A DNA stretch of 64,000 nt from Paraburkholderia ginsengiterrae (GTDB lineage Bacteria > Pseudomonadota > Gammaproteobacteria > Burkholderiales > Burkholderiaceae): the NCBI RefSeq assembly GCF_001645125.1, contig NZ_LXKA01000338.1, positions 186,001 through 250,000 on the forward strand. Direction: 5' to 3'. The translations under genes and the position numbers were made by a program. Positions 16,292 through 34,181 of the stretch are shown here, in pieces; the stretch's first letter is position 1; each line of letters opens with the position of its first letter. A model generated the notes under the pieces. The model had not been told where the DNA came from and searched no databases. It saw only the letters and a program-made list of their open reading frames with translations.

Positions 16292-16329
16292 CGTGTTCAA
16301 CCTATTCTTCAAAAGGGCGTGCCGTAGGC

Positions 16330-19288: not shown

Positions 19289-20743
19289 CTACTGGTCGAT
19301 CGCGAGCCACACTGCTTTGGGCTCCGTAAAGTTCTCGATCGCGACATCGCCGTGCTCGCGACCGAATCCTGAATCACCGGACCCGCCCCACGGCAAACGC
19401 ACATCGGTATAGCCATAGGTGTTGATCCATACGGTGCCCGCTTTCAGATCCCGTGCAACCCGGTGTACCCGGCCGATGTCCGCGCTCCACACACCCGCTG
19501 CGAGGCTATACAGCGTACCGTTGGCGATCCGTATCGCGTCGGCTTCGTCGTTGAAACGGATCACGCTGGCCACCGGCCCGAAAATCTCCTCCTGCGAAAT
19601 GCGCATTTCGTGCTCGACGCCGGCGAACACGGTCGGCTCCACGAAGAAGCCGCGCTGGCCCACGCGCGCGCCGCCGGTAACGAGCGACGCCCCTTCGGCG
19701 CGCCCTGTCTCGACATAGCCCAGCACCGTCTTCATCTGCGCCGCGGAGATGAGCGGCCCCATCGCTGTCTCGCGCGCCGACGGATCGCCAACCTTGATCG
19801 ACTTCGCGCGCGCGGCGAGCCGCTCGACAACTTCGTCGTAGACGTCGCGATGCGCGAGAATGCGCGAGCCCGCCGAACAGACCTGACCGGTGTTGAAAAA
19901 CACGCCGGCCGCCGCGGCCCGCACCGCGTTGTCGAGATTCGCATCCGCGAAGATCACGTTGGCCGACTTGCCGCCGAGTTCCAGCGTGACGCGCTTGAAA
20001 TTGCCGGCGGCGCCCTGCAGAATGCCGCGCCCCACGGAGGGCGAGCCCGTGAACGTTACCTTGTCGACGCCGGGATGCGCCACCAGTGCATCGCCGACCA
20101 CGCGACCCTTGCCGGTGACGATATTCAGCACTCCCGGCGGAACACCCGCTTCGAGCGCGAGTTCCCCAACGCGCAGCGCGGTAAGCGGAGTGATCTCCGC
20201 AGGTTTGACGATCAGCGTGCAACCGCACGCCAGCGCCGGCGCGATCTTCCACATACCGATCATCAGCGGGAAATTCCACGGCACGATCGCCGCGACCACG
20301 CCGACAGGTTCGCGCAACGTGTAGGTCAACGCATCGGGACGCACGGGCACGATCTGGCCGGTGATCTTGTCGCACCAGCCTGCGTAATATTCGAGCGTGT
20401 CGATCACGGCGGGAATGTCCTGACGCAGCACCGCGGCGATCGGCTTGCCGGCGTCCAGGCTTTCGAGCGCGGCAAGCTCCTCGAGATTGGCGCGTATCAG
20501 GCCGGCAAAGCGCATCAGAATGCGGCCCCGCTCGGCCGCCCGTATGGCGTTCCAACCCTTCAACGCCGCGCGCGCCGCATGCACCGCGGCATCGACATCG
20601 GCGGCGCTGCCTTGGGCCACCAGCGCAATCGGCTCCTCGGTAGCCGGGTTGATGTCGACGGAATATTCGCCGGTGCCGGGCGGCAAACGCTTGCCGTCGA
20701 TCAGCAGATCATGGCGCCTGAGGTCGGTTTCAGTATCCATCAT
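19289..20743 (-). CDS. NAD(P)-dependent aldehyde dehydrogenase
   Basis: The 484-residue enzyme oxidises an aldehyde to its acid. Catalytic residues are visible: Asn157 in PWNFPL, Glu255 in LELGGKS and Cys289 in FNTGQVCSAGSR. Length and motifs place it in the broad family that includes betaine-aldehyde and phenylacetaldehyde dehydrogenases; the substrate cannot be read from sequence. AAGGAG precedes the start. It lies 57 bases downstream of the LysR gene and in the same direction as the MFS transporter gene, so MFS-lysR-ALDH may be one transcript. If the nearby ThDP lyase releases an aldehyde, this enzyme could take it. Confidence 0.9.
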   Translation of the reverse strand: MMDTETDLRRHDLLIDGKRLPPGTGEYSVDINPATEEPIALVAQGSAADVDAAVHAARAALKGWNAIRAAERGRILMRFAGLIRANLEELAALESLDAGKPIAAVLRQDIPAVIDTLEYYAGWCDKITGQIVPVRPDALTYTLREPVGVVAAIVPWNFPLMIGMWKIAPALACGCTLIVKPAEITPLTALRVGELALEAGVPPGVLNIVTGKGRVVGDALVAHPGVDKVTFTGSPSVGRGILQGAAGNFKRVTLELGGKSANVIFADANLDNAVRAAAAGVFFNTGQVCSAGSRILAHRDVYDEVVERLAARAKSIKVGDPSARETAMGPLISAAQMKTVLGYVETGRAEGASLVTGGARVGQRGFFVEPTVFAGVEHEMRISQEEIFGPVASVIRFNDEADAIRIANGTLYSLAAGVWSADIGRVHRVARDLKAGTVWINTYGYTDVRLPWGGSGDSGFGREHGDVAIENFTEPKAVWLAIDQ

Positions 20744-20800
20744 GGGGCTCCTTGCAGGGGTGATTGGCGTAGGCTGGGTGGTACGGGGCCAAAGCTGAAG

Positions 20801-21775
20801 TCAGAGTTCGTGGAGGACGGCGCCGTCGCGCGCGGCAACGGGCGATGCCGGGGTGGTCGTAGCGGTGTTCGTGGCGGAGGGCGCCGCGCTCGCCGGTGCG
20901 GCGAACTGCGCCCAGGCAGCCGCGGCGTTGGGTCGAAGCGAACGGTTGCGGCGCTGCACGAGCAGCGTCGCCAGATTCATCTCGGGCGTCAAAGGTCGGC
21001 TGACCAATGAAGCGCCCACCGTGGGCCAATGGGCATCGACGGGTAAAACGCCGACGCCGAGGCCCAATTCGACCATGCGCAGCACCGCCGCGACATGTCC
21101 GAGCTCCTGCACCTGCCGCCGTTTCAAGCCATTCGCGCTGAACGCCGGTTCAAGCGCCGTGCGTACTCCCGCGTCGGCATTCAACGTGACGAGCGCACAC
21201 TCGCGCAACGCGCTCCATTCAACGCTCGCCTCCCCCGCCAGCGGATGCGTGGGGGGCATCACCGCATGAAACGGAGTCGTGAAGATGGTTTGCGCATGCA
21301 ACACGTCGCCGGCGAGCGGCTCGGCCAGCGAGACCACGCCGAAATCCGCCTCGCCTTGCTCGACACTCGCGAGTACACCGCTTTGCGGCAGATCCTTGAC
21401 GGACACGATCAGCCCGGGAAAAACCGCCGCGCATCGTGCAAGCCCCTGCGCCACCCAGCTCGACGACAACACCGGATTGCTCGCCAGCACCACCACGCCG
21501 GTATGGCCGTCGTGAGCGGCCCGTTCCTCCCGCAGCGTCAGTTCGATGTCGTCAAGGAGACGCCCGATCCTTCGCACGAGGCTCGCGCCGGCATGCGTCA
21601 GCTCGACCTGGCGCGTGGTGCGGTCGAACAGTTTCAGCTCGACCGCTTCTTCGAGCTCGCGCACGCAACGGCTCACGGCCGACTGCGTGAGGTCGAACTC
21701 GCGCGCCGCGCGCGTGAAGCTCCGCTCACGCGCGACGGCGACAAACACCTTGAGCTGCTGCAGCGAAACGTTCAT
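20801..21775 (-). CDS. LysR-family transcription regulator
   Basis: The 324-residue protein has the LysR helix-turn-helix at residues 3-60 (LQQLKVFVAVARERSFTRAA, DLTQSAVSRCVRELE) and a C-terminal effector-binding domain with the usual AVMPPTHPLAG and GLGVGVLPVDA segments. It is encoded between an OFA-type transporter and an aldehyde dehydrogenase on the same strand, with 30 and 57 bases of spacing, so it probably controls that unit. The last 40 residues are rich in Ala and Thr and appear to be a loose tail. Confidence 0.88.
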   Translation of the reverse strand: MNVSLQQLKVFVAVARERSFTRAAREFDLTQSAVSRCVRELEEAVELKLFDRTTRQVELTHAGASLVRRIGRLLDDIELTLREERAAHDGHTGVVVLASNPVLSSSWVAQGLARCAAVFPGLIVSVKDLPQSGVLASVEQGEADFGVVSLAEPLAGDVLHAQTIFTTPFHAVMPPTHPLAGEASVEWSALRECALVTLNADAGVRTALEPAFSANGLKRRQVQELGHVAAVLRMVELGLGVGVLPVDAHWPTVGASLVSRPLTPEMNLATLLVQRRNRSLRPNAAAAWAQFAAPASAAPSATNTATTTPASPVAARDGAVLHEL

Positions 21776-21805
21776 GACGTCATGGTCGAACGCAGTCCGG
21801 CCACC

Positions 21806-23149
21806 CTATTCCCGAGTTTGCTCGGACCAATGACCGAGCTGCGAGGCATTGCCGGCGCCCGCCACCGCCAGCACACCCTGTGGCTCGTTGTGCGATTCGA
21901 TCCAGCGCGCGCGCATCGGTGCGAGTACGAATTTGGCCGAGACACCCGCGGCGATCGTCACGATGGCGGAGACAATGAAGACGAGACTCCAGCCTCCCGC
22001 CGAGGACAATACCGAGGCAAGCGGCACCAGCAGCGAAGCCGTGCCTTTTGCGGTGTACAAAGTGCCCGCGTTGGCGGCCGCGTATTTGCTGCCGAACGTG
22101 TCCGCGCAGATTGCGGGAAAGATCGAAAAGATCTCGCCCCAGAACAGGAAGATCAAAGCTGCGAACGTCATGAACGCATACGGATTGCTGCCGTACTGCA
22201 TCAGGCCGAGCAACGCCAGGCCTTCGCCGATAAAGATCACGAACATGGTGTTTTCACGCCCGAGCTTGTCGGACATGAAGCCGCAAAACGGACGTGTAAA
22301 ACCGTTGCAGATGTTGTCGATGGAAAGTGTCGCCGTCAGCAGCGGCAAGGTCATACCGAAGAACGTCATGGGAATGCGGGCGAGACCCCAGTCCTTCGCG
22401 ATCGGGCCAATCTGCGCGGTCGCCATCAGGCCGCCTGCCGCCACCGCAACAAATGACACGTAGATCAACCAGAACACCGGAGTCCTGATCATCTGACCAG
22501 GTGTGAAGTCGACTTTCGTCACCGCGAACTTCTTCTTCGGTGCGGCGTGCTGGCGCAACACCGGTTTCTTCAACAGCAGCGCGAGTGCCAGAATGCATCC
22601 GCCTTGCAGAATGCCGAAAAAGAAGAAAGTGTGCTCATAACCCGAGCGGTTAATCATGCTCGCAATCGGAATGACCGTCACCGCCGCGCCGGCGCCAAAA
22701 CCCGCTGCCGTGAGACCTGCGGCGAGACCGCGCCGGTCGGGAAACCATTTCAGCGCGTTGCCGACACAGGTGCCATACACGCCGCCTGCTCCGATCCCGG
22801 CGATCACCGCGGACGCGTACAGCATCGGCAGCGTCGATGCGTAGGAATTCATCACCCACGCAAGGCCCGCGCAAACCGCGCCGCCCGCCACCACCGGGCG
22901 CGGACCGAACTTGTCGACGAGCCAGCCCTCCAGCGGTACGAGCCACGTTTCAGTCAGAATGAAAATCGCAAAGGCAAGTTGAATGGAGGCCTCGCCCCAG
23001 TGATGCTTTGTGTTCATCGGCGTGACGAACAACGTCCACGCGTATTGCAGGTTGGCCACGAACGCCATGCACACCATGCCGATGACGAGCTGCCACCAGC
23101 GATTCGCCCAAAACACGCGGGCCGTGCCCTGCCGATTGATATCGTCCAT
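21806..23149 (-). CDS. MFS transporter of the oxalate/formate antiporter family
   Basis: This 447-residue protein has about twelve membrane helices and follows the OFA pattern: NLQYAWTLFVTPM in helix 1, GIGAGGVYGTCVGNALKWFPDRRGLAAGLTAAGFGAGAA around helices 4-5, and SDKLGRENTMF in the central loop. Family members exchange oxalate for formate or carry monocarboxylates such as pyruvate and lactate. Neighbouring frc and ThDP-lyase genes make oxalate or another short acid the best guess. GGAGACAAGG precedes the ATG. A second OFA transporter lies at 32642. Confidence 0.85.
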   Translation of the reverse strand: MDDINRQGTARVFWANRWWQLVIGMVCMAFVANLQYAWTLFVTPMNTKHHWGEASIQLAFAIFILTETWLVPLEGWLVDKFGPRPVVAGGAVCAGLAWVMNSYASTLPMLYASAVIAGIGAGGVYGTCVGNALKWFPDRRGLAAGLTAAGFGAGAAVTVIPIASMINRSGYEHTFFFFGILQGGCILALALLLKKPVLRQHAAPKKKFAVTKVDFTPGQMIRTPVFWLIYVSFVAVAAGGLMATAQIGPIAKDWGLARIPMTFFGMTLPLLTATLSIDNICNGFTRPFCGFMSDKLGRENTMFVIFIGEGLALLGLMQYGSNPYAFMTFAALIFLFWGEIFSIFPAICADTFGSKYAAANAGTLYTAKGTASLLVPLASVLSSAGGWSLVFIVSAIVTIAAGVSAKFVLAPMRARWIESHNEPQGVLAVAGAGNASQLGHWSEQTRE

Positions 23150-23567
23150 GCGCCTTGTCTCCGCTATTTATGTCGTGCGGCCGGCCGGCGCCCCGAGGGA
23201 CGATCCCTTGGGGAACAAGCCGCGCTGCGTGCGTCCCAACTCGTGGTGATGCCTCGGATCGCCTCGCTCGCCGCCTATCGGCAATATCGCGCCTTCAATC
23301 GATTCCTTTTAAAAACCGGCCAGCTTGAATTACCGATTTTTAATTTCCTTTATTCCGATCAATTAATGCCTTGCAGTGCGACGAAACACCGGCCGTTTCA
23401 GCCGGCACGCCCGCAAGCCACGCGTTAACCCGAGTCCCGCGCCCAGTGGCTCTGCGGCCATTTCGCTTGCGCGGCTTTCTTTTAGAGACCCATGCTAGGG
23501 TCATTGCTGAATTACTAATAATTAAAGTTTGTTATTATGTTGATTCACGTTTGCTTATACATCGGCC
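23150..23567. other. 418-base divergent intergenic region
   Basis: No gene is supported. The region lies between the leftward MFS operon and the rightward lysR gene and should carry both promoters. The part from about 23290 to 23360 and from 23500 to 23545 is clearly AT-rich against the surrounding GC-rich genes. A likely regulator site is listed at 23516-23538. Confidence 0.65.
23516..23538 (+). promoter_or_regulatory. candidate LysR-type operator and -10 element
   Basis: TAATAA at 23516-23521 and TTATTA at 23532-23537 form an inverted repeat with a 10-base spacer, which is close to the T-n11-A layout of LysR sites. The right arm overlaps TATTAT (23533-23538), a one-mismatch -10 hexamer, 30 bases before the lysR ATG. 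No good -35 is visible, as expected for a regulated promoter. Autoregulation by the adjacent LysR protein is the simplest reading. Confidence 0.45.
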
Positions 23568-24515
23568 ATGACGATGCGCAATGCCACACTGCGACAACTC
23601 AAGGTGTTCGAAACGGTGGCGCGCCACCTGAGCTTCTCGCGCGCCGCTGAGGAATTGCATCTCACGCAGCCGGCCGTCTCCACCCAGGTCCGGCAACTCG
23701 AAGAACACGCGGGGCTGCCGCTGTTCGAACAGCTCGGCAAAAAAATCTATCTGACGCCGGCCGGCAACGAGATGCTTCACTACAGCCGCGCGATCATCCA
23801 GCAGTTCCACGAAGTCGACGAGGCGATGAGCCAGCTCAAGGGCGTCTCCGGCGGCAAGCTGAATGTCGCGGTGATCAGTGCCGGCGACTACTTCTTTCCG
23901 CGCCTGCTGGCCGAATTCACGCGTCGTTACTCGGGTGTCGTGCTCAATCTCTCGGTGCACAACCGCGAGGAGCTGTTGCATCAACTCGCCACCAACCAGA
24001 CCGATCTCGCCGTGATGGTGCGCCCGCCGCACGAAACCGACGCGACCAACGAAGCGTTCGCGCCTCACCCGTATGTGATCGTGGCGGCGCCTACGCATCC
24101 GCTCGCGCACAAGCGCAACATCAAGATGAGCCAGCTTGCGAACGAGGCCTTTATCGTGCGCGAGCGTGGCTCGGACACGTGGAATTCGATGGAAGAAGGT
24201 TTCGCCGGGCGCCTCAGCAATCTCAAGATCGCCATGGAGATCAAGAGCACCGAGACCATCAAGCAGGCCGTGATCGCGGGCATGGGCATCGCCTTCCTGT
24301 CCGCGCATACCATCAGCCTCGAGTTGCAGCTCGGCCACCTGGTCGTGCTCGATGTCGAAACCTTTCCGGTCATGCTCAACTGGTACGTCGTGCACCGCAA
24401 GAACAAGCGCCTGCCGCCGGTGGCGGTCGCTTTCAAGCGCTTCCTGATGGAAGAAGGCGCGACGCTGATCGAGAGCATCACGCGCGTCAGGGAATTGAGC
24501 GTTTATAAGCAGTAG
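23568..24515 (+). CDS. LysR-family transcription regulator (CbbR-like)
   Basis: The 315-residue protein has the LysR DNA-binding domain at its N-terminus (LRQLKVFETVARHLSFSRAA, HLTQPAVSTQVRQLEEHAG) and an effector domain with KGVSGGKLNVAVISAGDYFFP, a block typical of CbbR-related members. It is transcribed away from the MFS-lysR-ALDH unit and converges with the PntB-like gene, five bases away. It probably controls the divergent transporter operon, the downstream acid-catabolism genes, or both. No clear ribosome binding site precedes the ATG. Confidence 0.88.
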   Translation: MTMRNATLRQLKVFETVARHLSFSRAAEELHLTQPAVSTQVRQLEEHAGLPLFEQLGKKIYLTPAGNEMLHYSRAIIQQFHEVDEAMSQLKGVSGGKLNVAVISAGDYFFPRLLAEFTRRYSGVVLNLSVHNREELLHQLATNQTDLAVMVRPPHETDATNEAFAPHPYVIVAAPTHPLAHKRNIKMSQLANEAFIVRERGSDTWNSMEEGFAGRLSNLKIAMEIKSTETIKQAVIAGMGIAFLSAHTISLELQLGHLVVLDVETFPVMLNWYVVHRKNKRLPPVAVAFKRFLMEEGATLIESITRVRELSVYKQ

Positions 24516-24520
24516 TCGCC

Positions 24521-25411
24521 TCATATCCGCACCCGCGCCGCCCGGTAGCGGGCGCGCACCCGCTTCGGTTCATCCACGCGCCGGCTGTCATGCCGGCCTC
24601 GGCGGTGCGCGTAAGCCGTGTTGCGCATGCTCCCCTGCCCGGGTTCACGCAGCGCCCATTCTTGTTGTTCCCCGCCGTGCCATTCGATACGCGCCAGCAG
24701 CCCACGCCGCCCCAGGGTCAAACTGTGGCAACGCGCGGCGAAAGCCAGCGCGGGCGAGTCGTGATCCTGTCCCTGGGTGTACTCGCGGCTGATCATCAGA
24801 TGCACGCCCATCGCGCAAGCCAGCGCGCACATCGCCAGCAGCGCCGCGAATCCGAATGGCCGCGCCTGTTCTGTCACGAAGCCATAGCCGAGCCATCCAC
24901 ACAGCAGCAGTGCGAACAGATTGGCGATGTCGTGACCCGGACGCGTCATCGCGTCGCGCTGTAACGCGCCGAGCAGTTTGCAGAAGACGATCGCCGAGGT
25001 GGCGAAAATCAGCGCGCCAATGAACATCGCGGCACAGAGTTCAAGACGTTCGACATCCGCCTGCGCCGAAGACAGATAACGCGCGAAGCCGCCCAGCACG
25101 ACTGCGAGTCCCAGGACGCTGCCCGACAAGGAGACGAGCTTCGACCACCGGGTCAGATTTCGCCCATGTGCAAGCCAGACCCCGAACAGCGCACTTGCCA
25201 CCGCAGTACCGGCCAGACCGACGCTCGCGCCGACGCCGGCGGCGAACAGTCCCGCAAGAGCGGCCACCGGTATGCCCGTGTGCCAGAAGGGCCGGCGCAC
25301 CGGGCGCCGTTCGGGCAGCAGTTGCTCCAGCGCGGCGAGTGCAACGGCCGACACGGCAGCGAGCACAGCGGTCAGCGCAAACCACGCGGGACTGTCATAC
25401 GCATGCGGCAT
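24521..25411 (-). CDS. PntB-like membrane protein lacking the transhydrogenase domain
   Basis: The 296-residue protein has about eight membrane helices whose central part can be matched to the membrane domain of NAD(P) transhydrogenase beta subunit: SVLGLAVVLGGFARYLS, RLELCAAMFIGALIFATSA and the helix before GVHLMI. It then departs: the GGADMP block, the remaining helices and the whole NADP-binding domain are absent, replaced by about 90 basic residues. The channel histidine found in PntB (LHSF) is serine here. No pntA is present. It is therefore unlikely to be a working transhydrogenase; an orphan or decaying membrane protein is more likely. GGAGGAG before the ATG and operon position after the FAH gene argue that it is still translated. 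Confidence 0.6.
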   Translation of the reverse strand: MPHAYDSPAWFALTAVLAAVSAVALAALEQLLPERRPVRRPFWHTGIPVAALAGLFAAGVGASVGLAGTAVASALFGVWLAHGRNLTRWSKLVSLSGSVLGLAVVLGGFARYLSSAQADVERLELCAAMFIGALIFATSAIVFCKLLGALQRDAMTRPGHDIANLFALLLCGWLGYGFVTEQARPFGFAALLAMCALACAMGVHLMISREYTQGQDHDSPALAFAARCHSLTLGRRGLLARIEWHGGEQQEWALREPGQGSMRNTAYAHRRGRHDSRRVDEPKRVRARYRAARVRI

Positions 25412-25486
25412 GCTTGCTCCTCCGAATGGCGGCGCATGGCCGCCAGGCTGATGCATCGCGCGAGCGGTCTAGCCCTCATCGCCCCT

Positions 25487-26305
25487 TCACACAGCGCTGG
25501 CCTCGGCGGCCGCGGCCGCCCCTGCCGTGACTGCACCCGCAGCGCTCAAGGTATTGCTGAGCCTACCGATCCCTTCTATCGCGACCGTCACGGTCGCGCC
25601 ATCCTTGATCGAGCCCACGCCGACCGACGTGCCGCATGCGATCACGTCGCCCGGTTCGAGCGTGAGATCCTGAGAGATGAGACTCACCTGCTCGGCGGGA
25701 GAAAACACCATATCGGCGAGCGGATAGTTCTGCCGCTCCACGCCGTCGAGCGTCGTCGTGAGATGCGCTTTCTGCCACGCGAACCCGGAGACGATCGCCG
25801 GTCCGATACAGCAGAACGTATCGAAGCCCTTTGCGCGGCACCACTGCGGGAAGTGCGGATTTTCGTTCAGCAGATCGGCGGCGGTGACATCGTTGACGAG
25901 CGTGTAGCCAAAGATCGCCTGCGCGGCCTCTTCGATACTCGCATTGCGGCAACGCCGCCCGATCACGATACCTAGTTCACCCTCATAAACGATCTTGCCC
26001 GCGTAACCGGCCGGCCGCCGTATCGGCTCGCCCGCGCCGATCACCGAACTCGCAGGCTTGAGCAGAAACAGCGGATGGGACGGCACGGGTTTGTCCAGCT
26101 TTGCCGCCAGCGCATGAAAGTTGTTCCATAGCGCAACGACCTTGCCGGGCGCACACGGCGCGAGCGGCGTGAGGGCGCGCGTCGACAGCACCGCGCCGGT
26201 CGGCACTGGCTGTTCAAGGCTTTCGTACTCGTGCAGATAACCACCTTCCACGCGGCCAAATACAACACCACCGTCGTTCGACATGAAACGCATCCACGTA
26301 TCCAT
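25487..26305 (-). CDS. fumarylacetoacetate hydrolase family protein
   Basis: The 272-residue protein has the FAH catalytic fold, with the metal-binding acidic residues in KIVYEGELGIVIG and in GYTLVNDVTAADL, and the C-terminal block EPGDVIACGTSVGVGS. Relatives act as oxaloacetate decarboxylases, acylpyruvate hydrolases or 2-hydroxyhepta-2,4-dienedioate isomerases, all on 2-oxo or enol acids. The specific substrate is unknown. AAGGAAGG precedes the ATG. It lies 94 bases downstream of frc and 75 bases upstream of the PntB-like gene in the same direction. Confidence 0.82.
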   Translation of the reverse strand: MDTWMRFMSNDGGVVFGRVEGGYLHEYESLEQPVPTGAVLSTRALTPLAPCAPGKVVALWNNFHALAAKLDKPVPSHPLFLLKPASSVIGAGEPIRRPAGYAGKIVYEGELGIVIGRRCRNASIEEAAQAIFGYTLVNDVTAADLLNENPHFPQWCRAKGFDTFCCIGPAIVSGFAWQKAHLTTTLDGVERQNYPLADMVFSPAEQVSLISQDLTLEPGDVIACGTSVGVGSIKDGATVTVAIEGIGRLSNTLSAAGAVTAGAAAAAEASAV

Positions 26306-26399
26306 ACATCCTTCCTTGAGCGGCCTGACGCACCCACCGAAGGGTCACGCCAGGCACTGCATGCGCGGCAAACGGCGCGCAGGACCGTTTTCCATGTGG

Positions 26400-27647
26400 C
26401 TAGATCGCGCCGGCGGTGCGCAACGCGCTGATCTGCTCGGGCGAGTAGCCGAGTTCCGCCATGACTTCGTCGGTGTGTTCGCCAAGCAGCGGTGAACGTC
26501 TGACCTCTGTCGGGCTGTCGGACAATTTGATAGGATTGCCAACGGTCAAATACTTGCCGCGGGTCGGATGGTCCACTTCGACAATCGTGCCGGTTTTGCG
26601 CAGCGAAGGCTCCTCGGCGATTTCCTTCATCGAGAGAATCGGCCCGCAAGGAATGTCGTACTTGTTGAGAATCTGCATGGCTTCGAACTTGGTCTTCGTC
26701 ATAGTCCAGCGTTCGATCTCGGCGAAAATATCCTTCAACCGCGGCAGACGCGCGGCGGGCGTCGCGTAATCGGGATCCGTGGCCCACTCTTCCTTGCCGA
26801 TCACGTTGCAGATTTTGGCCCATACGGGCGCCTGCGTGATGAAGTAGATATACGCGTTGGGGTCCGTCTCCCAGCCCTTGCACTTCAGAATCCAGCCCGG
26901 CTGGCCGCCACCCGACGCATTGCCCGCTCGCGGCACCGCCTCGCCGAACTCTCCGTTCGGATATTGAGGGTATTCCTTCATCATGCCGGTGCGTTCGAGC
27001 CGCTGCTGATCGCGCAGCTTGACGCGGCACAGGTTGAGCACGCCGTCCTGCATCGCGGCGAGCACGCGCTGGCCGCGTCCGGTTTGGGTACGCTGAAAAA
27101 GCGCCGTGACAATGCCCAGCGCCAGGTGCAAACCGGTGCCGCTATCGCCGATCTGCGCGCCCGTCACAACCGGCGGGCCGTCGTCGAAACCGGTGGTCGA
27201 CGCCGCGCCGCCCGCGCATTGCGCGACATTTTCGTAGACCTTGCAGTCTTCATAAGGCCCGGGGCCAAAACCCTTCACCGAGGCGACAATCATGCGCGGG
27301 TTCAGCTCCTGAATCCGCTCCCACGTGAAGCCCATGCGGTCCAGCGCACCCGGTGCGAAGTTCTCGACCAGCACGTCGCATGTCTGGATCAATGCTTCGA
27401 GAACCTGTTTGCCTTCGGGGTTCTTCGTATCGATCGTGACAGAGCGCTTGTTGTGATTGAGCATCGTGAAGTACAGGCTGTCCACGTCGGGAATATCGCG
27501 CAACTGCTCGCGCGTGATGTCGCCCGCACCGGCCCGCTCCACCTTGATCACGTCGGCGCCGAACCACGCGAGCAATTGGGTGCAGGTCGGCCCCGATTGC
27601 ACATGCGTGAAGTCGAGAATGCGCACGCCGTCGAGTGCTTTGCCCAT
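26400..27647 (-). CDS. frc: formyl-CoA:oxalate CoA-transferase family enzyme (class III)
   Basis: The 415-residue enzyme belongs to the class III CoA-transferases and reads closely like formyl-CoA transferase: [20 protein letters not shown] at the N-terminus, [19 protein letters not shown], and [10 protein letters not shown] holding the catalytic aspartate (Asp168; Asp169 in the Oxalobacter enzyme). It would pass CoA from formyl-CoA to oxalate or another acid and release formate. The insert after EYPQ is shorter than in Oxalobacter Frc. It lies 24 bases after the ThDP-lyase gene, whose formyl-CoA product it would reuse. AGGAGAT precedes the ATG. Confidence 0.85.
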
Positions 27648-27671
27648 GTCGTATCTCCTGAAGTAGCCGTG

Positions 27672-29435
27672 TTATTTGTACATGGTCTGGTTCTTCGTCC
27701 CCGGTGCGTACTCGCGTGGGTCGACCCAGATGTTGACGACCGCCGAGCGGCCGGTCCGATGAATTGCCTCACGGGCGCGTTGCAAGGCCGCCGCGATCTG
27801 CGCCGGGTCCCGCACTTCTTCGCCATAACCGCCCAGCATCTCGGCGAACTTGCTGAACGGCACATCGCTCAGCAGATTGCCGACGTTGCCGCGCTCGTCG
27901 CCGTATTTGGCGAGCTGGCCGTAGCGGATCTGATTCATCGCGGAGTTATTGCCGATCACCGCCAGATAGGGCGCGCCGAAGCGATTGGCGGTTTCCATGT
28001 CGAACGCGGTCATGCCGAACGAGCCGTCGCCGTAGTAGCACAGCACTTCCTTGTGCGGATGAGCGAGCTTTGCCGCGAGCGCGAAGCCGGTTCCCACGCC
28101 AAGCGAGCCCAGCGCGCCCGGGTCCATCCATTGCCCCGGACGGCGCGGGCGAACCGCCTGCGCGGAGATCGTCACGACGTCGCCGCCATCGCCGATGTAA
28201 ATCGTGTCGTCGGCGAGGAATTCGTTGAGTTCGTAGGCGACGCGATAAGGATGGATCGGTGTGCTATCCGATTTGAAGAGCGGCATCAGCTTGTCGGTTG
28301 CGGCAGCTTCCGCGTCCTGCAACTGCTTCATCCACGCGCGGCGCGCCTGCCGGCGGTCGGCCTTCAGGCGACCGCCGGCGGCCTGCAGCACGGCGGCGAG
28401 AATCGCCCCCGGATCGCCCACCAGTCCGAGGTCGATATCGCGATTCTTGCCGACCGTGCGGTAGTCCATATCGATCTGCACCAGCGTCAATTCCTTGCTG
28501 ATGCGCCGGCCGTAGCCCATGCGGAAATCGAACGGCGTGCCCACGACGATCAGCAGATCCGCATTGGCAAACGCCTGCGAGCGGGTACGGTCGAAGTGAT
28601 GCGGATCGCCCGGCGGCAGCAACCCGCGGCTCGCGCCGTTGAAATAGCCGGGCACGTCGATACCGCGCAGCAGCGCCACGGCTTCTTCATGGCCGCGCGC
28701 GGTCCACACCTGCTGGCCGTACAGAATGGCCGGACGCTGCGAGTCCACCAGCAGGTCCGCGAGCTTCTCGATGTCGCGTGGATCGCCGACCGATTTCGTC
28801 GAAGCCCGATAGTGCCCCGGCTGCGGCACGACGGCGCGAGCGAGGTCGATTTCACGGTCCAGCACGTCGCGCGGAATTTCCAGGTAGGCCGGACCGGGCG
28901 CGCCGTTGAAGCACTCGCGCGCCGCCATCGAGATCATGTCCGCAACCCGTTCGGTGCTGGGGACACTGGCGGCGAATTTGGTGATCGGCGCCATGATGTC
29001 GACGTGCGGCAGGTCCTGCAGCGAGCCCATCTTGTGTTGCGTAAGCGCGCCCTGCCCGCCGATATGCAGGATCGGGCTTTCGGAACGGAACGCCGTGGCG
29101 ATGCCCGTGATTGCGTTCGTGCAACCCGGCCCCGCGGTCGTGACCACGCAGCCGAGCTTGCCGGTCTGGCGCGCGTAACCGTCTGCTGCATGCGCCGCGA
29201 CCTGCTCGTGGCGCACGTCGATGATGCGAATTCCTTCGTCGACGCAGCCGTCGTAAATGTCGATGATGTGCCCGCCGCATAGCGTGAAGATCGTATCGAC
29301 GCCTTCGTTCTTCAGTGCCTTGGCCACCAGGTGGCCGCCCGAGACGACGCCCGCATTGCGCGCCTTCTGCTTGAGCGTGTCCTCGGCCGTCGTGCTGCCC
29401 GGCGCCGGATTCAGGGATGAAGCCACTGCAGCCAT
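27672..29435 (-). CDS. ThDP-dependent lyase: oxalyl-CoA decarboxylase or 2-hydroxyacyl-CoA lyase type
   Basis: The 587-residue protein has the three domains of ThDP enzymes. The cofactor-activating glutamate is Glu77 in VRHEQ, and the ThDP/Mg motif runs from GDGSFG (469-474) to NN (496-497). Next to frc the obvious role is decarboxylating oxalyl-CoA to formyl-CoA. Yet its N-terminal pattern FTLCGGHIIDIYDGC and the TTAGPGCTNA block look more like HACL2/ILVBL-type 2-hydroxyacyl-CoA lyases or acetolactate synthases than the VSAPGFLNG pattern of known Oxc. A lyase making formyl-CoA plus an aldehyde is an equal alternative. I start at 29435, where AGGAG precedes the ATG; the open frame to 29633 is not needed. 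Confidence 0.8.
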   Translation of the reverse strand: MAAVASSLNPAPGSTTAEDTLKQKARNAGVVSGGHLVAKALKNEGVDTIFTLCGGHIIDIYDGCVDEGIRIIDVRHEQVAAHAADGYARQTGKLGCVVTTAGPGCTNAITGIATAFRSESPILHIGGQGALTQHKMGSLQDLPHVDIMAPITKFAASVPSTERVADMISMAARECFNGAPGPAYLEIPRDVLDREIDLARAVVPQPGHYRASTKSVGDPRDIEKLADLLVDSQRPAILYGQQVWTARGHEEAVALLRGIDVPGYFNGASRGLLPPGDPHHFDRTRSQAFANADLLIVVGTPFDFRMGYGRRISKELTLVQIDMDYRTVGKNRDIDLGLVGDPGAILAAVLQAAGGRLKADRRQARRAWMKQLQDAEAAATDKLMPLFKSDSTPIHPYRVAYELNEFLADDTIYIGDGGDVVTISAQAVRPRRPGQWMDPGALGSLGVGTGFALAAKLAHPHKEVLCYYGDGSFGMTAFDMETANRFGAPYLAVIGNNSAMNQIRYGQLAKYGDERGNVGNLLSDVPFSKFAEMLGGYGEEVRDPAQIAAALQRAREAIHRTGRSAVVNIWVDPREYAPGTKNQTMYK

Positions 29436-29523
29436 GATCGTCTCCTGATCAATCGTTTGCTCAGCGGTTGCGAAGGACGCGCCCGTTTCAACACACCGGG
29501 TCATGCGCTCGATTTCGCAGAGT

Positions 29524-29558
29524 TGATATATCACATACCATATTTTCGATATCGTCAA
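29524..29558 (-). promoter_or_regulatory. promoter of the ThDP-lyase/frc operon with overlapping GntR-type operator
   Basis: Read on the minus strand, TTGACG (29553-29558) is a good -35 and TGTGAT (29530-29535) follows after 17 bases as -10. The -10 lies inside the 15-bp motif GTATGTGATATATCA (29524-29538), whose right part is a perfect 10-bp palindrome, TGATATATCA. The same motif with two central changes occurs at 30669-30683 upstream of the gntR unit. A repressor bound here would block the polymerase. Confidence 0.6.
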
Positions 29559-29616
29559 GCGCGGTTTATCCCGCACCGCACCGTTTCGCTTCGCTTCGCT
29601 CGCAGCAAACAAGAAA

Positions 29617-29640
29617 GCCCGCGGTGTCTCCACCGCGGGC
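29617..29640 (-). terminator. rho-independent terminator of the gntR gene
   Basis: Perfect 10-bp arms GCCCGCGGTG (29617-29626) and CACCGCGGGC (29631-29640) flank a four-base loop. On the minus strand the hairpin is followed by TTTCTTGTTT, so it ends transcription coming from the gntR gene before the ThDP-lyase promoter. Confidence 0.85.
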
Positions 29641-29683
29641 CCTCTTGCTTGATTACGTCAGACCAGATCCGGCCGGCCGGTCG

Positions 29684-30403
29684 TCAATCCAGAAAATCGC
29701 AATTCACTTCGACAAAGGTGGCGAGATCCAGCGAATGCTGGCGCGTCAGGCGCTCAGCCAGTTCGGTATCGCGCTTCTCGAGCGCCTCGATAATCCGCAG
29801 ATGGTCGACGATCGAGCGCGACGCGCGGTCGCTCTGCGAAATGGTCATGCGGCGAATCGCACGCACGTGGATGAAGATGTTCTTGATGGTGTCCAGAATG
29901 ATCTGCGACTTGGACAGTTCGACGATTGCCTGGTGAAACGCGATGTTGGCGTCCGAATATTCGGCAATATGCTCAGCCGGCGTGGCGTCGCGGAAATTGT
30001 CGAACATATGGCGCAGACGGGCGATTTCCTCGTCCGTGGCATGCAGCGTGGCAAGACGTGCCGCCATGCTTTCGAGCGCGGCCCACATCTGGATCATCTC
30101 GACGATTTCGCGCTTGCTCTTGCGCACGATATAGATGCCGCGCCGCGGCACCATGCGCAGAAAACCTTCCTGTTCGAGCAGCGTCATGGCCTCGCGCACC
30201 GGCGTGCGGCTGACGCCGAGCGACTCGCTCAGCACGCGCTCGTCGAGGCGGATTTCTTCGCGGTTCTGATAGATGTCCGCGTCGGCAATGGCCTGGCGGA
30301 GCATGGCATACGCCTGATCGCGCAAGCTCACGCTTGCGCCGATGGGCTGCAGTGACAACGTCAGCGGTGTGGCCACTGCTTCAGTTTGAAGTTCTGACGA
30401 CAT
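29684..30403 (-). CDS. GntR-family regulator, FadR/FCD subfamily
   Basis: The 239-residue protein has a winged helix-turn-helix at about residues 28-95 (RLDERVLSESLGVSRTPVRE, LEQEGFLRMVPRRGIYI) and a C-terminal all-helical FCD effector domain with the metal-site pattern around YSDANIAFHQAIVE and DHLRIIEAL. FCD regulators usually sense organic acids and repress their catabolic genes. It lies directly behind the ThDP-lyase operon and shares a candidate operator with it. Its ATG overlaps the end of a small upstream gene by 23 bases; AGAGG precedes the start. Confidence 0.9.
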   Translation of the reverse strand: MSSELQTEAVATPLTLSLQPIGASVSLRDQAYAMLRQAIADADIYQNREEIRLDERVLSESLGVSRTPVREAMTLLEQEGFLRMVPRRGIYIVRKSKREIVEMIQMWAALESMAARLATLHATDEEIARLRHMFDNFRDATPAEHIAEYSDANIAFHQAIVELSKSQIILDTIKNIFIHVRAIRRMTISQSDRASRSIVDHLRIIEALEKRDTELAERLTRQHSLDLATFVEVNCDFLD

Positions 30404-30596
30404 TCATCGCCTCTGATTGAACATGTGCACGATACGGTGCTGCCGCCGCACGTTGCTCGCCCAGACCGACGAACCGGCCATGCTGCGCTGCAAGCTGCGC
30501 AACCGGGCGCGGAATCAGACGGGTCAGGAGAACCGTGGCGGTAGAGCCCAAACCCACAGCGGCGGTGGCAAGCAGCGCGAGAGGAACATACTGCAT
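30381..30596 (-). CDS. 71-residue small membrane protein upstream of gntR
   Basis: The frame encodes one N-terminal membrane helix (VPLALLATAAVGLGSTATVLL) followed by a polar, arginine-containing tail of about 45 residues. The ATG at 30596 follows GGAG with seven bases of spacing. The gene overlaps the start of gntR by 23 bases, so the two are probably co-translated. No family is recognised. It could take part in sensing or transport in the acid pathway, but that is only suggested by position. A longer frame to 30662 would overlap the upstream control region. Confidence 0.5.
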   Translation of the reverse strand: MQYVPLALLATAAVGLGSTATVLLTRLIPRPVAQLAAQHGRFVGLGEQRAAAAPYRAHVQSEAMNVVRTSN

Positions 30597-30964
30597 GTGT
30601 AACTCCGGAATGATTGAGTGAAGGAATAACCCAATCATATGCTGCGACGCCGCAAAAATCAATATTCTGTATGTAGTATATCAGTAATCGTTGTTTTTAC
30701 GATTGCATCTTCACAGTAGCACGGGCTGACCGCCTCCGCTTCACTGCCTTGCGGGAACACGCAACGCTCGGTGTTAACACGCAAAACGCGCGCTACTCGC
30801 GCAGTCGCGTTCGATGATCGCGCAAAAAGAGTCCAATACGGATTGTGATACCGGGCTCGCGTGATTAACCTTCGGACATCCTGCAATTGAACGCCGGCAG
30901 CCGCCTTCACCACTTCTGCCGCGCGACACAAACAGCAGCCCGAGCGTTTCAAGGAGACACTGCG
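30597..30964. other. 368-base divergent intergenic region between the gntR unit and the MHS transporter
   Basis: No gene is supported. It must hold the promoter of the leftward small-protein/gntR unit and that of the rightward transporter gene. The candidate operator at 30669-30683 is the only clear element. I see no convincing -35/-10 pair for the transporter; on the minus strand TATACT within the operator could be a -10. Confidence 0.6.
30669..30683 (+). promoter_or_regulatory. second copy of the GntR-type operator motif
   Basis: GTATGTAGTATATCA matches the motif on the ThDP-lyase promoter at 13 of 15 positions, differing only in the two central bases. On the minus strand the site contains TATACT, a possible -10 for the small-protein/gntR unit. 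The match at both ends of the regulator's own neighbourhood suggests autoregulation and control of the lyase operon by the same protein. Confidence 0.6.
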
Positions 30965-32284
30965 ATGAGCACCACCATCCCGACGGCCGCCCCGGCCGAC
31001 AACCGCATGGCGCGCAGCCAGGCCCGCAAGGCGGCGCTCGGCAGTTTCGTCGGCGCCGTAGTCGACTGGTACGACTTCCTGTTGTATGGCATCGTCGCCG
31101 CCCTCGTGTTCAACGCCGAGTTTTTCCCGAAAGTCAGCCCGGCCATGGGCACGCTCGCGGCGTTCGCCACCTTCGGCGTCGGCTTTCTGTTCCGTCCGCT
31201 CGGCGGTTTCGTGTTCGGCCACTATGGCGACAGGCTCGGACGCAAACGCATGCTGGTGCTGACCGTGATGATGATGGGTCTATCGACCGCCGCGATCGGC
31301 CTGCTGCCGTCGTTCGCCAGCATCGGCTGGTGGGCGCCGGTGCTGCTCGTGACGCTGCGCGCGATCCAGGGCTTCGCCGTCGGCGGCGAATGGGGCGGCG
31401 CGGCGCTGATGGCGGTCGAAAGCGCGCCGGAGAAAAAGAAGGCGTTCTATAGCAGCGGCGTGCAGGTCGGCTATGGCGTGGGTCTGGTGCTCTCGACCGG
31501 ACTGATCGCGATCATCAGCCGCTCGATGAGCAACGCGTCGTTCCTGAGCTGGGGCTGGCGCCTGCCCTTCCTGTTCAGCGTGGTGCTGGTGCTGATCGCG
31601 TTGTGGATCCGCTCGAGCATGGAAGAGTCGAAGGAGTTCGTCGAGAAAGTCGGCGCGCACGGCGAGCGCAGCGTGCGCCTGCCGATCGTCGAGGCCTTGC
31701 TGAAGCATCCGAAGGCGTTCCTGCTGATCATCGCGCTGCGCCTTGCCGAACTGTTCACGATGTATATCGTCACGGCCTTCGCGCTGAATTACTCGACGGC
31801 CAATCTGCACATGCCGCGCGAGTTCTTCCTCACCATCGGACTGCTGGTGGGCGCACTGAGCTGCGTGACGATTCCGTTGTTCGCGTTGATGGCGGACCGC
31901 TTCGGCCGCCGCCGCGTGTACATCATCGGCGCGCTGATCGGCATGCTGAGCGCGGTGCCCTTCTTCATTGCACTCGAAGCGCGCTCGACGGTATGGATCG
32001 TGATCTTCGCCGTCATGCTCGCCAACGTCGCGCACGACATGGTGGTGAGCGTGCAGCAGCCGATGTTCACCGAACTGTTCGGCACCGAGTACCGCTATAG
32101 CGGCGCGGGCGTGGGTTATCAGGTGGCGAGCGTGGTGGGCGGCGGCTTCACGCCGTTTATCGCGGTTGCGCTGGTCAGCTTTGCCGGCGGCTCATGGCAT
32201 CCGGTGGCCGCTTATCTGGCGATCGGCTGCCTGATTTCGGTGCTGGTGGCGGCGAAGATGAAGACTGGGCGCACAGTCGACTGA
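30965..32284 (+). CDS. MHS-family MFS transporter (metabolite:H+ symporter)
   Basis: The 439-residue protein has twelve predicted helices and the MHS signature: GSFVGAVVDWYDFLLYG at helix 1, GHYGDRLGRKRML in the 2-3 loop and RAIQGFAVGGEWGGAALMAVE at helix 4. Members (shikimate, citrate, alpha-ketoglutarate and similar permeases) import organic acids with protons. Context suggests uptake of the acid degraded by the neighbouring operon. AAGGAGA lies just before the ATG at 30965. A strong terminator follows. Confidence 0.88.
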   Translation: MSTTIPTAAPADNRMARSQARKAALGSFVGAVVDWYDFLLYGIVAALVFNAEFFPKVSPAMGTLAAFATFGVGFLFRPLGGFVFGHYGDRLGRKRMLVLTVMMMGLSTAAIGLLPSFASIGWWAPVLLVTLRAIQGFAVGGEWGGAALMAVESAPEKKKAFYSSGVQVGYGVGLVLSTGLIAIISRSMSNASFLSWGWRLPFLFSVVLVLIALWIRSSMEESKEFVEKVGAHGERSVRLPIVEALLKHPKAFLLIIALRLAELFTMYIVTAFALNYSTANLHMPREFFLTIGLLVGALSCVTIPLFALMADRFGRRRVYIIGALIGMLSAVPFFIALEARSTVWIVIFAVMLANVAHDMVVSVQQPMFTELFGTEYRYSGAGVGYQVASVVGGGFTPFIAVALVSFAGGSWHPVAAYLAIGCLISVLVAAKMKTGRTVD

Positions 32285-32641
32285 GTCTTACCGATTCATG
32301 GTCGCCCAAGCGGGCCGGCGTGGCGATATTTGCCACTGCCGGCCCGCTTTCTTTTGAGCGCCCGGCAAGTTGTTCCGGCTCGCCATGCCGCGTACGCGAG
32401 AGCGCTCAAATTGTGACAAGAGTTCACCAGGCGAACCCCTTATGCATTTTGATCTCATATTGCCAAGGCCAGGCTCCAGTTCTATGGTTATTCGATGCGG
32501 ATTGCGTCGCTGGGTCAAACGCTGCATATGAAATACAAATACATATATTGACCACAGCCCAGTTTGTCGCGTTGACATTGGGAGATCTCGAGCATTCCGC
32601 AGGACGCGCCGATAACAACGAATTCGTCACGGAGACCGACC
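32285..32641. other. 357-base intergenic region before the second OFA transporter
   Basis: No gene is supported. The first 70 bases carry the terminator of the MHS transporter gene. The remainder is relatively AT-rich around 32515-32565. A perfect -35 hexamer TTGACA lies at 32572-32577, but I find no matching -10 at the right distance. Confidence 0.6.
32308..32355 (+). terminator. rho-independent terminator after the MHS transporter gene
   Basis: Perfect 12-bp arms (32308-32319 and 32338-32349) enclose a further GTGGC/GCCAC stem around GATATTT, giving a long GC-rich hairpin. It is followed by TCTTTT on the plus strand. Confidence 0.9.
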
Positions 32642-34045
32642 ATGAGCAGCATCACCGACCCGAGCGGAAGTGCAGGTTCCGCCCCATTCTTTTCCAAAAA
32701 AGCCACCGTTGCGAAGCCGGGGTTTTCGCGCTGGATGGTTCCACCGGCCGCACTCGCGGTCCACCTCTGTATTGGCCAGGCGTACGCGTTCTCAGTGTTC
32801 AACGGCCCGCTGACCAAGGTGATCGGCATTACGCAATCCACCGCCGACGACTGGTCGCTGACCTCGCTCGGCTGGATCTTTTCGCTGGCGATTGTGTTCC
32901 TCGGTTTGTCGGCCGCCTTCGCCGGCAAATGGCTTGAACATGTCGGCCCGCGCCGCACGATGTTGACCGCCGCAGGCTGTTTCGGCGGCGGCTTCATGAT
33001 CTCCGCGCTCGGTGTCTATCTGCATCAGATCGTGCTGCTCTATCTCGGCTGCGGCGTGATCGGCGGAATCGGACTCGGCCTTGGTTATGTGTCGCCGGTG
33101 TCCACCTTGATCCGCTGGTTCCCGGACCGCCGCGGCATGGCGACCGGCATGGCGATCATGGGCTTCGGCGGTGGCGCGATGATCGCCGCGCCGCTGTCGG
33201 TCGCGTTGATGAACCACTTTCGCAGCGCCACCAGCATCGGCGTGGCCGAGACCTTTGTCGTGCTCGGCATTGCGTACTTCATCTCGATGACGATCGGCGC
33301 CCTCGCGATCCGCGTGCCGCCGCCTGACTGGAAGCCGGCCGGCTGGACGGCGGGCGAGACCACGCAAAACAAGATGATCTCGCGCAACCACGTGCACATC
33401 GACCAAGCCTTGAAGACGCCGCAGTTCTATCTGATCTGGCTGGTGCTGTTCCTGAACGTGACCGCCGGCATCGGCATTCTCGGCCAGGCCTCGGTGATGA
33501 TTCAGGAGAGCTTCAAGAACACAGTGACGGCAGCGGCAGCGGCCGGCTTCGTGGGCCTTCTTTCGCTCTTCAATATGGGGGGCCGTTTTGTGTGGGCCTC
33601 GGCTTCGGACTGGATTGGCCGCAAAAACACCTACTTCATCTTTTTCGCGCTCGGCGCGGTGCTGTACTACCTGGTGCCGGATTTCGCGGCATCCGGCCAG
33701 ATCGCGCTCTTCGTGCTCGCTTACTGCGTGATCCTGACCATGTACGGCGGCGGCTTTGCCACCGTACCGGCGTATCTCGCGGACATGTTCGGCACGACGT
33801 TTGTCGGCGGCATCCACGGCCGTCTGCTGACCGCGTGGGCCGCGGCCGGCGTTGCCGGTCCGGTGCTGGTGAATTACATCCGCGCCTATGAAGTCGCGCA
33901 CGGCGTCGCCAAGGCGGACGCCTACACGATGACGGTTCACATCATGGCCGTATTGCTGGTGATCGGCTTCGTTTGCAACCTGCTGATCAAGCGTGTGGAT
34001 GACAAGCACCACATGACCGACGCACAAATCGCCGAAGGCGCCTAA
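32642..34045 (+). CDS. OFA-family MFS transporter (oxalate/formate or monocarboxylate)
   Basis: The 467-residue protein has twelve predicted helices with OFA landmarks: HLCIGQAYAFSVFNGPLTKV at helix 1, GIGLGLGYVSPVSTLIRWFPDRRGMATGMAIMGFGGGA around helices 4-5 in pattern, and YLADMFGTTFVGGIHGRLLTAW near helix 11. Relatives include oxalate/formate exchangers and the pyruvate or lactate carriers of the YhjX type. It differs from the transporter at 21806 enough to be a separate lineage. A 41-residue membrane protein gene follows after ten bases. CGGAGAC precedes the ATG. Confidence 0.87.
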   Translation: MSSITDPSGSAGSAPFFSKKATVAKPGFSRWMVPPAALAVHLCIGQAYAFSVFNGPLTKVIGITQSTADDWSLTSLGWIFSLAIVFLGLSAAFAGKWLEHVGPRRTMLTAAGCFGGGFMISALGVYLHQIVLLYLGCGVIGGIGLGLGYVSPVSTLIRWFPDRRGMATGMAIMGFGGGAMIAAPLSVALMNHFRSATSIGVAETFVVLGIAYFISMTIGALAIRVPPPDWKPAGWTAGETTQNKMISRNHVHIDQALKTPQFYLIWLVLFLNVTAGIGILGQASVMIQESFKNTVTAAAAAGFVGLLSLFNMGGRFVWASASDWIGRKNTYFIFFALGAVLYYLVPDFAASGQIALFVLAYCVILTMYGGGFATVPAYLADMFGTTFVGGIHGRLLTAWAAAGVAGPVLVNYIRAYEVAHGVAKADAYTMTVHIMAVLLVIGFVCNLLIKRVDDKHHMTDAQIAEGA

Positions 34046-34055
34046 GGAGCCCTAC

Positions 34056-34181
34056 ATGTCGACCACTCAGGCACACCCGACCAACAAGGTCAAACTCACC
34101 GTCTTCTGGCTATATGTGATGCTGCCGCTGGCATGGGGCGTGTTCAATACGCTCTCCCAGGCGATGAAGCTCTTCAGATAA
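34056..34181 (+). CDS. 41-residue MFS transporter small subunit
   Basis: A short gene directly behind the OFA transporter encodes a polar N-terminus with lysines (STTQAHPTNKVK) and one membrane helix (LTVFWLYVMLPLAWGVFNTL). It has a good ribosome binding site, AAGGAGC, eight bases before the ATG, and starts ten bases after the transporter stop. Small one-helix proteins of this kind are known next to OFA-type MFS genes and are annotated as MFS transporter small subunits; they probably bind or stabilise the carrier. The gene is easy to miss because of its length. Confidence 0.75.
   Translation: MSTTQAHPTNKVKLTVFWLYVMLPLAWGVFNTLSQAMKLFR

Follow-up and report, generated by a model that had tools for sequence, protein, structure and literature searches.

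A second, non-orthologous oxalyl-CoA decarboxylase candidate in a probable oxalate-use island of Paraburkholderia ginsengiterrae

The window considered here, a 64 kb stretch of contig C328 from the 8.53 Mb genome of Paraburkholderia ginsengiterrae, carries a gene for a thiamine diphosphate (ThDP)-dependent enzyme immediately upstream of frc, which encodes a formyl-CoA:oxalate CoA-transferase (Frc). This ThDP enzyme and its close relatives are labelled the lyase throughout, and loci, genomes and contigs bear labels beginning with L, G and C, respectively. The surrounding cluster is best explained as an oxalate-use island in which the lyase functions as an oxalyl-CoA decarboxylase but belongs to a lineage other than that of canonical Oxc; among the sequences tried, AcHACL is its nearest relative. 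We place the probability of this reading at roughly 0.8 and infer the reaction itself from context, the weight of which points to oxalate; for now, the enzyme is best named a non-orthologous oxalyl-CoA decarboxylase candidate. The genes, their conservation, the replacement pattern, the shared operator and the tree position come from the present analysis, while the growth phenotypes and the mutants of Cupriavidus necator and P. phytofirmans are taken from published work.

As envisaged, OxlT would import oxalate in exchange for formate, Frc would shift CoA from formyl-CoA onto oxalate to yield oxalyl-CoA and formate, and the ThDP enzyme would convert oxalyl-CoA to CO2 and formyl-CoA, the latter recharging Frc. 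A PanE-like protein encoded nearby would probably divert oxalyl-CoA to glyoxylate for assimilation; its position and an analogy with C. necator ApbA2, drawn without direct comparison to that protein, make it a probable oxalyl-CoA reductase (CoA-acylating glyoxylate dehydrogenase). The best solved relative of the window Frc is E. coli YfdW (633 bits). Key residues of Frc include Gln17, Trp48, Asp169 and Gly259-Gly260 (PMC10192776). Read without alignment to a reference Frc, the window protein has Gln17 and a Gln at position 48, where the reference has Trp48, with Asp168 in an IGDSG motif and a GGG run from position 246 as the likely equivalents of Asp169 and Gly259-Gly260.

Canonical Oxc is ruled out as the identity of the lyase by family scores and tree position together, in agreement with a preliminary description of this DNA, which had judged the sequence to look more like the 2-hydroxyacyl-CoA lyase (HACL) type HACL2/ILVBL than like known Oxc. 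The lyase scores 214.5 bits of a cut-off of 739 against TIGR03254 and 231 of 557 against PRK09259, the canonical Oxc models, reaches 358 of 600 against the actinobacterial HACL model NF058623, and is only 24% identical to the genome's own Oxc. It falls below the cut-off for all of the best 25 of the 51 NCBIfam models matched, and the highest score among the matches listed is to PRK05858 (446 bits, cut-off 587), a family of putative mycobacterial HACL which we take to cover the mycobacterial protein P66947. AcHACL is its best solved relative (35% identity over the part compared); the closest solved structures are 2-hydroxyacyl-CoA lyases, and known Oxc structures come further down the list. A tree of 31 sequences was built from 10 members of the lyase family, AcHACL, 9 canonical Oxc and 11 other ThDP enzymes of the genome; from the genome's 14 ThDP enzymes (L003 being the window enzyme and L009 its Oxc), L014 was omitted. 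The lyase family forms a clade with support of 100/100 that is sister to the actinobacterial AcHACL (99/95), and Oxc forms a separate clade (100/100). The preliminary description had proposed such a tree with several characterized enzymes; the placement outside Oxc and beside AcHACL emerged from it, with AcHACL as the only HACL reference (HACL1, HACL2, RuHACL and PRK05858 lie outside the set) and with a long-branch warning that includes AcHACL.

The lyase family is tightly conserved, with a mean column identity of 85% across 30 chosen sequences and 66% identity between the window enzyme and a Streptomyces member, and it extends to genomes of Acidobacteriota and Alphaproteobacteria (mostly metagenome-assembled) and to Streptomyces. 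Eighty related lyase loci were kept for synteny, and partner genes were counted on the 45 with full flanks. In 74 of the 80, drawn from several classes and phyla, Frc lies directly downstream of the lyase; three others stop at a contig end, and in the remaining three the Frc match overlaps the lyase end by a few bases (L136), lies elsewhere on the contig (L117), or is not found in the roughly 420 bases left (L149). An accidental adjacency of lyase and frc is rejected on this synteny, and the two genes do form the pair that the preliminary description had made of them, separated in the window by the 24 bases (27648-27671) it had reported. A plasmid collection holds eight records matching the lyase, and the three with annotation there are called 'thiamine pyrophosphate-binding protein'. 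On a Streptomyces plasmid the lyase, frc, an acyl-CoA ligase and an OFA transporter stand in one row, and on a Phyllobacterium plasmid lyase-frc occurs with sucCD, with OxlT and an acyl-CoA ligase on the opposite strand. A regulator annotated as BhcR lies within the Phyllobacterium cluster. Genome G072 (4.5 Mb) has two lyase-Frc loci, L075 and L076, whose Frc proteins are 64% and 69% identical to that of the window.

Support for a shared function comes from how the lyase and canonical Oxc are distributed across 300 genomes of the bacterial family (lyase matches at E up to 1e-120, canonical Oxc at E up to 1e-150). The lyase was found in 39 genomes, canonical Oxc in 144 (139 over the curated cut-off) and Frc in 179, and the Frc-positive genomes divide into 139 with Oxc only, 33 with the lyase only, 5 with both and 2 with neither (Fisher p = 2.6e-28, not corrected for phylogeny). 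Within the window's genus, taken as 40 genomes with or without Frc, the same opposition gives p = 0.0015, not corrected for descent. Frc accompanies Oxc in 144/144 genomes and the lyase in 38/39, five of the 39 lyase genomes holding both enzymes. As read from the table of matches, one Frc is present in 31 of the 33 lyase-only genomes and at least two in 136 of the 139 Oxc-only genomes. G048, one of those with neither enzyme, has short lyase pieces on separate contigs, and in the lyase genome that does not have a full-length Frc (G215, L198), the lyase, Frc, ADP-forming (ACD-type) ligase, FAH and Suc matches are all in pieces.

The same opposition is seen within the clusters themselves, as judged from 20 canonical Oxc loci hand-picked from the 144 to span genera (L188 being shortened by a contig end). 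The seven of Cupriavidus type (genus code g3; L177-L183) contain GntR and FAH in 7/7, PanE and OxlT in 6/7, LysR1 in 5/7 and the lyase in 0/7. All six checked (L178-L183) hold one or two Frc genes close to the Frc that is paired with the lyase in C. pauculus (L107; 84-94% identity) but distant from the Oxc-paired Frc of the window genome (55-58%), together with an Oxc-paired Frc that is 85-89% identical to that of the window genome. These loci typically run PanE, GntR, lyase-type Frc, FAH, Oxc and Oxc-type Frc, compared with PanE, GntR, SucD, SucC, lyase, Frc, ACD, FAH, LysR1, OxlT and LysR2 in lyase-type Cupriavidus loci, some of which do not have every member. In four loci from three genus codes (L184, L191, L192 and L194), GntR and an Frc 86-92% identical to that of the window flank Oxc with its own Frc, and FAH comes next after the window-like Frc. 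Over all 20 canonical loci, GntR occurs in 15, FAH in 13, OxlT in 13, PanE in 9, LysR1 in 9, SucC in 2, ACD in 1, ALDH in 1 and the lyase in none. The lyase and canonical Oxc seem to have displaced each other in otherwise similar clusters, and the simplest story, in a direction that we infer, is that an Oxc-Frc pair arrived and the lyase was then lost. The FAH protein is found near both the lyase and canonical Oxc (L177-L184, L190-L192, L194 and L195), and may therefore be an unrecognised step of oxalate metabolism.

The two kinds of cluster also share an operator-like site, GTATGTGATATATCA, searched for in the 420 bases before a gene, at most 2 mismatches being allowed. It precedes the lyase in the window, in 20/20 of L087-L106 and in 8/8 of L107-L113 and L172, that is, in 29/29 loci of Paraburkholderia or Cupriavidus type, and it precedes canonical Oxc in 7/7 of L177-L183. 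The shorter form TGATATATCA, itself a perfect palindrome, was present before the lyase in all 21 loci examined (the window and L087-L106). The site additionally precedes PanE in 13/37 cases and SucC in 12/30, and 30 loci with 106 sites between them had none left after their letters were shuffled. The GntR protein is the presumed regulator of the cluster. Two operator-like sites 156-161 bases apart stand before the lyase in 18 of 20 relatives; the window has one (within 29436-29683).

Published growth data connect these genes to oxalate. The genomes of P. tuberum LMG 21444, P. phenoliruptrix LMG 22037 and P. kururiensis LMG 19447 were searched, along with that of P. graminis C4D1M, presumably the same type strain as LMG 18924. 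None of these four genomes has a canonical Oxc over the cut-off, and in each of them the lyase itself is the top hit for Oxc, at 215-223 bits; a canonical Oxc was present as well in 3 of 20 named genomes searched. A bicupin oxalate decarboxylase, as an alternative route, gave no match in 5/5 genomes, these four and that of the window. Among 58 strains tested on calcium oxalate by Kost et al., the positive ones include Burkholderia tuberum LMG 21444, B. phenoliruptrix LMG 22037 and B. kururiensis LMG 19447, the same strains as were searched, and B. graminis LMG 18924 (PMC3886118); the comparison covered oxalate-positive strains only. P. phytofirmans, with its single copy of oxc, no longer grew on oxalate once that gene was lost (PMC3886118), and in C. 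necator deletion of frc-oxc abolished such growth, while loss of the nearby apbA2, the proposed CoA-acylating glyoxylate dehydrogenase gene, only slowed it (PMC7486775). A formyl-CoA-forming decarboxylase therefore seems needed, and strains able to grow on oxalate that do not carry canonical Oxc probably have a substitute, for which the lyase is the gene in the right place. No earlier report of the lyase as an oxalyl-CoA decarboxylase and no published mutant of a lyase cluster were found in searches of the open-access PMC literature; a Collimonas gene adjoining frc has been named 'oxalyl-CoA oxalate decarboxylase' (PMC12542777) and may belong to the lyase family.

A number of observations weigh against an oxalyl-CoA decarboxylase. 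The exclusion of lyase and Oxc carries no correction for phylogeny, and G061 (L197), the other of the two genomes with neither enzyme, is the one clear exception to the exchange, in that it keeps LysR1-OxlT-LysR2-PanE-GntR-SucDC-Frc-FAH with no lyase between SucC and Frc, and no canonical Oxc was found in it. Canonical loci that are not of Cupriavidus type have fewer of the shared partners, among them the nine other than L184, L191, L192 and L194. Over all loci, GTATGTGATATATCA precedes the lyase in only 35/86 and Oxc in 8/20; outside the Cupriavidus type it stands before Oxc in 1 of 13 canonical loci (L195), and it was not found in those of the window's own genus (0/5, L184-L188). The four oxalate-positive genomes are drafts in which oxc may fall in gaps, and other ThDP enzymes are present in them. 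The CoA ligases of many lyase clusters could supply CoA in another way, and a different aldehyde dehydrogenase (ALDH), 24% identical to that of the window, adjoins sucCD in a Streptomyces lyase cluster (L173:4156-5697, - strand).

A further objection lies in the active site, as read from sequence alignment alone. Key residues of Oxc include Glu56, Tyr120, Glu121, Tyr483 and Ser553 (PMC10192776). The ThDP-activating Glu56 is kept as E77, but the rest of the Oxc signature is missing: Tyr120-Glu121 becomes Leu139-Gln140, Tyr483 becomes Ile503 (beside a gap), and Ser553 becomes Asn582, near a C-terminal end that differs from that of Oxc and in which PGT and QTMY are invariant. The Leu-Gln pair is that of AcHACL 127/128, Gln140 matching Gln128, whereas the catalytic Glu493 of AcHACL is replaced by Ile503, which is invariant in 30 sequences. 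In a published comparison (PMC13327070, Table 1), these positions hold Ile and Gln in human HACL2, pyruvate oxidase and glyoxylate carboligase, whereas AHAS pairs Gln with Val; the lyase here resembles human HACL2 and carboligases, not Oxc. These residues do not bear out catalysis of the Oxc type in detail, and a carboligase or lyase function stays conceivable. If the enzyme is a decarboxylase, it uses a different active site, which fits what an independent origin would predict.

The preliminary description had set out two cycles and preferred the second, in which the ThDP enzyme would be a 2-hydroxyacyl-CoA lyase with Frc as its recycling activator: a 2-hydroxyacyl-CoA would be split to an aldehyde or ketone and formyl-CoA, with which Frc would charge the next 2-hydroxy acid. 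The solved relatives, AcHACL as the tree sister and the match of Gln140 and Ile503 to human HACL2 (PMC13327070, Table 1) speak for it, but the loss of the AcHACL catalytic Glu does not, and the neighbours differ too, those of AcHACL being a 2-HIBA-CoA ligase and MpdBC (PMC7176365) and those of the lyase Frc and OxlT. It also sits poorly with an OxlT over its equivalog cut-off, a Frc nearest to YfdW, the shared operator, the exchange with canonical Oxc beside Frc and four oxalate-positive species in which no canonical Oxc was found. Among the genes queried, no aldehyde-using enzyme tracks the lyase across groups. The ALDH proposed as the aldehyde outlet is not a conserved partner in the loci seen: the window type (at least 40% identity) occurs in 12/45 full-flank loci, all of Paraburkholderia type, though flanks may cut it off elsewhere, and it also occurs in the canonical Oxc locus L195; it is therefore weak evidence for an aldehyde product. 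The 2-hydroxy-acid cycle thus appears improbable, and it is the first cycle, oxalotrophy, that OxlT, the replacement of Oxc and the oxalate-positive species favour.

A second alternative, to be regarded as a similarly long shot, is a carboligase in oxalate assimilation, for which oxalyl-CoA or formyl-CoA would give a ThDP-bound carbanion that attacks glyoxylate or another aldehyde to form tartronyl-CoA or a similar acyl-CoA. In one version, just as improbable, the lyase would join a one-carbon unit derived from oxalyl-CoA to glyoxylate from the PanE-like reductase, giving tartronyl-CoA in a natural carbon-assimilation step of formyl-CoA type within oxalotrophy. Ile503 together with Gln140 matches a pattern of enzymes, glyoxylate carboligase and pyruvate oxidase among them, in which the carbanion is not protonated on-pathway (PMC13327070, Table 1), and the CoA ligases of many lyase clusters could substitute for formyl-CoA as the CoA source. 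An ACD-type ligase, usually after frc, is found in 26/45 full-flank lyase loci, and SucC of a SucCD-like pair in 17/45. The former, situated between frc and FAH in, for example, L064:12038-14233, L068:12117-14318 and L079:11942-14149, and absent from the window, is possibly an oxalate- or formate-CoA ligase; such a ligase would make sense where oxalyl-CoA drains to glyoxylate and the CoA charge is renewed with ATP. The SucCD-like pair lies beside the lyase in L068:6464-8639 (- strand), L172 and L174, its beta subunit scoring 558 against a malate-CoA ligase cut-off of 604. Against a carboligase, a search limited to relatives of the ACD-type ligase at E 1e-60 came back empty for P. tuberum (G301), G020 and G065 and yielded no more than a partial match (33%) for the window genome, so that Frc in these genomes appears to depend on formyl-CoA; furthermore, the window genome holds an ordinary glyoxylate carboligase (1189 bits). 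A third alternative, that the enzyme is an acetolactate synthase or other unrelated ThDP enzyme beside frc by accident, has in its favour that the best-scoring NCBIfam model is named acetolactate synthase, though the score stays below the cut-off. It is scarcely credible, since the pair is kept across classes and phyla, and other proteins of the genome exceed the acetolactate synthase model cut-offs.

Within the oxalotrophic reading, the window cluster resembles the canonical systems typified by OfOXC and E. coli YfdU (TIGR03254) in its partner genes, many canonical loci sharing Frc, OxlT, GntR, FAH and PanE with it, and in its presumed reaction. It likewise recalls the type II oxalotrophy cluster oxlT-oxc-frc of P. 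phytofirmans PsJN (PMC3886118) in bringing together a transporter, a decarboxylase and a transferase, but the window decarboxylase would come from another lineage. Elsewhere in the window genome, contig C378 (L188) carries a separate OxlT-Oxc-Frc cluster, in which Oxc scores 999 bits (cut-off 739) and is accompanied by an OxlT-like gene and a second Frc of 725 bits; the window pair is therefore a second set in this genome.

The features of the island are collected in Table 1. All of the genes named in the preliminary description were recovered (Frc, FAH, ALDH, the PanE-like gene and the three transporters OxlT, MHS and OFA), but the single operon it had drawn was not: the core unit lyase-frc-FAH lies on the - strand and LysR1 and two transporters on the +, and with regulators and transporters on both strands the cluster is therefore an island with several transcripts. 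The mechanical open reading frame of the lyase spans 27672-29633 (-), with the Pfam TPP_enzyme N, M and C domains from residue 98 onward; its start is placed at the ATG at 29435 and not at 29633, because homology sets in only at about residue 96 of the mechanical frame and this ATG is preceded by an AGGAG seen by eye. Directly after the GntR gene, a GC-rich hairpin followed by T-rich sequence was seen by eye (about 29640-29605). The membrane protein at 24521-25456 has homology to the N-terminal part of PntB only and is fast evolving (43-60% in L087-L106 where found). The shikimate-transporter-like and lactate-transporter-like genes (30959-34045) also stand beside the GntR gene in most of L087-L106, and polysaccharide export and sugar-transferase genes (SLBB, Poly_export, Bac_transf) adjoin the island at 15089-17838.

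Table 1. Positions, strands and supporting evidence of the features in and around the proposed oxalate-use island; positions are those of the window.
Feature	Position	Strand	Basis
ThDP enzyme (lyase), 587 aa, proposed non-orthologous oxalyl-CoA decarboxylase	27672..29435	-	Pfam, NCBIfam, tree, context
Frc, formyl-CoA:oxalate CoA-transferase	26400..27647	-	TIGR03253, 744 bits (cut-off 504)
FAH-family protein	25487..26305	-	PF01557; 35/45 full-flank lyase loci; 13/20 canonical Oxc loci
GntR/FCD regulator, probably of the cluster	29684..30403	-	profile match; 40/45 full-flank loci
OxlT oxalate/formate antiporter	21806..23149	-	TIGR04259, 630 bits (cut-off 335)
PanE/ApbA-like protein, just outside the stretch first described	18206..19183	+	profile match; position; analogy with C. 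necator ApbA2
Operator-like site GTATGTGATATATCA upstream of the lyase, 15 bp	29524..29538	-	no match in 100 shuffles of the window; conserved
Second operator-like site, between the divergent genes for GntR and the MHS protein, with 2 mismatches	30669..30683	+	motif match
LysR regulator 1, between FAH and OxlT	23568..24515	+	translation read by eye; 35/45 full-flank loci
LysR regulator 2, adjoining OxlT	20801..21775	-	family match; 32/45 full-flank loci
Aldehyde dehydrogenase (ALDH), accessory	19289..20743	-	PF00171; 12/45 full-flank loci; also canonical L195
Membrane protein with PntB-like stretch, accessory	24521..25456	-	PF02233, 55 bits; 15/45 full-flank loci
MHS-family, shikimate-transporter-like, neighbour	30959..32284	+	831 bits (cut-off 538)
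OFA-family MFS transporter, best match L-lactate MFS transporter, neighbour	32642..34045	+	338 bits (cut-off 320)

Surveys of oxalotrophs search for oxc, described in one of them as a closely knit family with common active-site residues (PMC7190790). The best explanation of the present observations is that the lyase is a second, non-orthologous oxalyl-CoA decarboxylase, as suggested by its context, of a family found also in Acidobacteriota and Streptomyces, and if this is so many organisms have been missed. In the family sampled here, the missed share would be the 33 lyase-bearing genomes among the 172 Frc-positive ones with exactly one of the two enzymes, to which the members in Acidobacteriota, Alphaproteobacteria and Streptomyces would be added. 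Such an enzyme would account for the use of oxalate by Paraburkholderia without oxc, and would exemplify how one gene can replace another while the cluster around it is conserved. It would furthermore offer a new scaffold for formyl-CoA chemistry, a field in which Oxc and HACL are being engineered.

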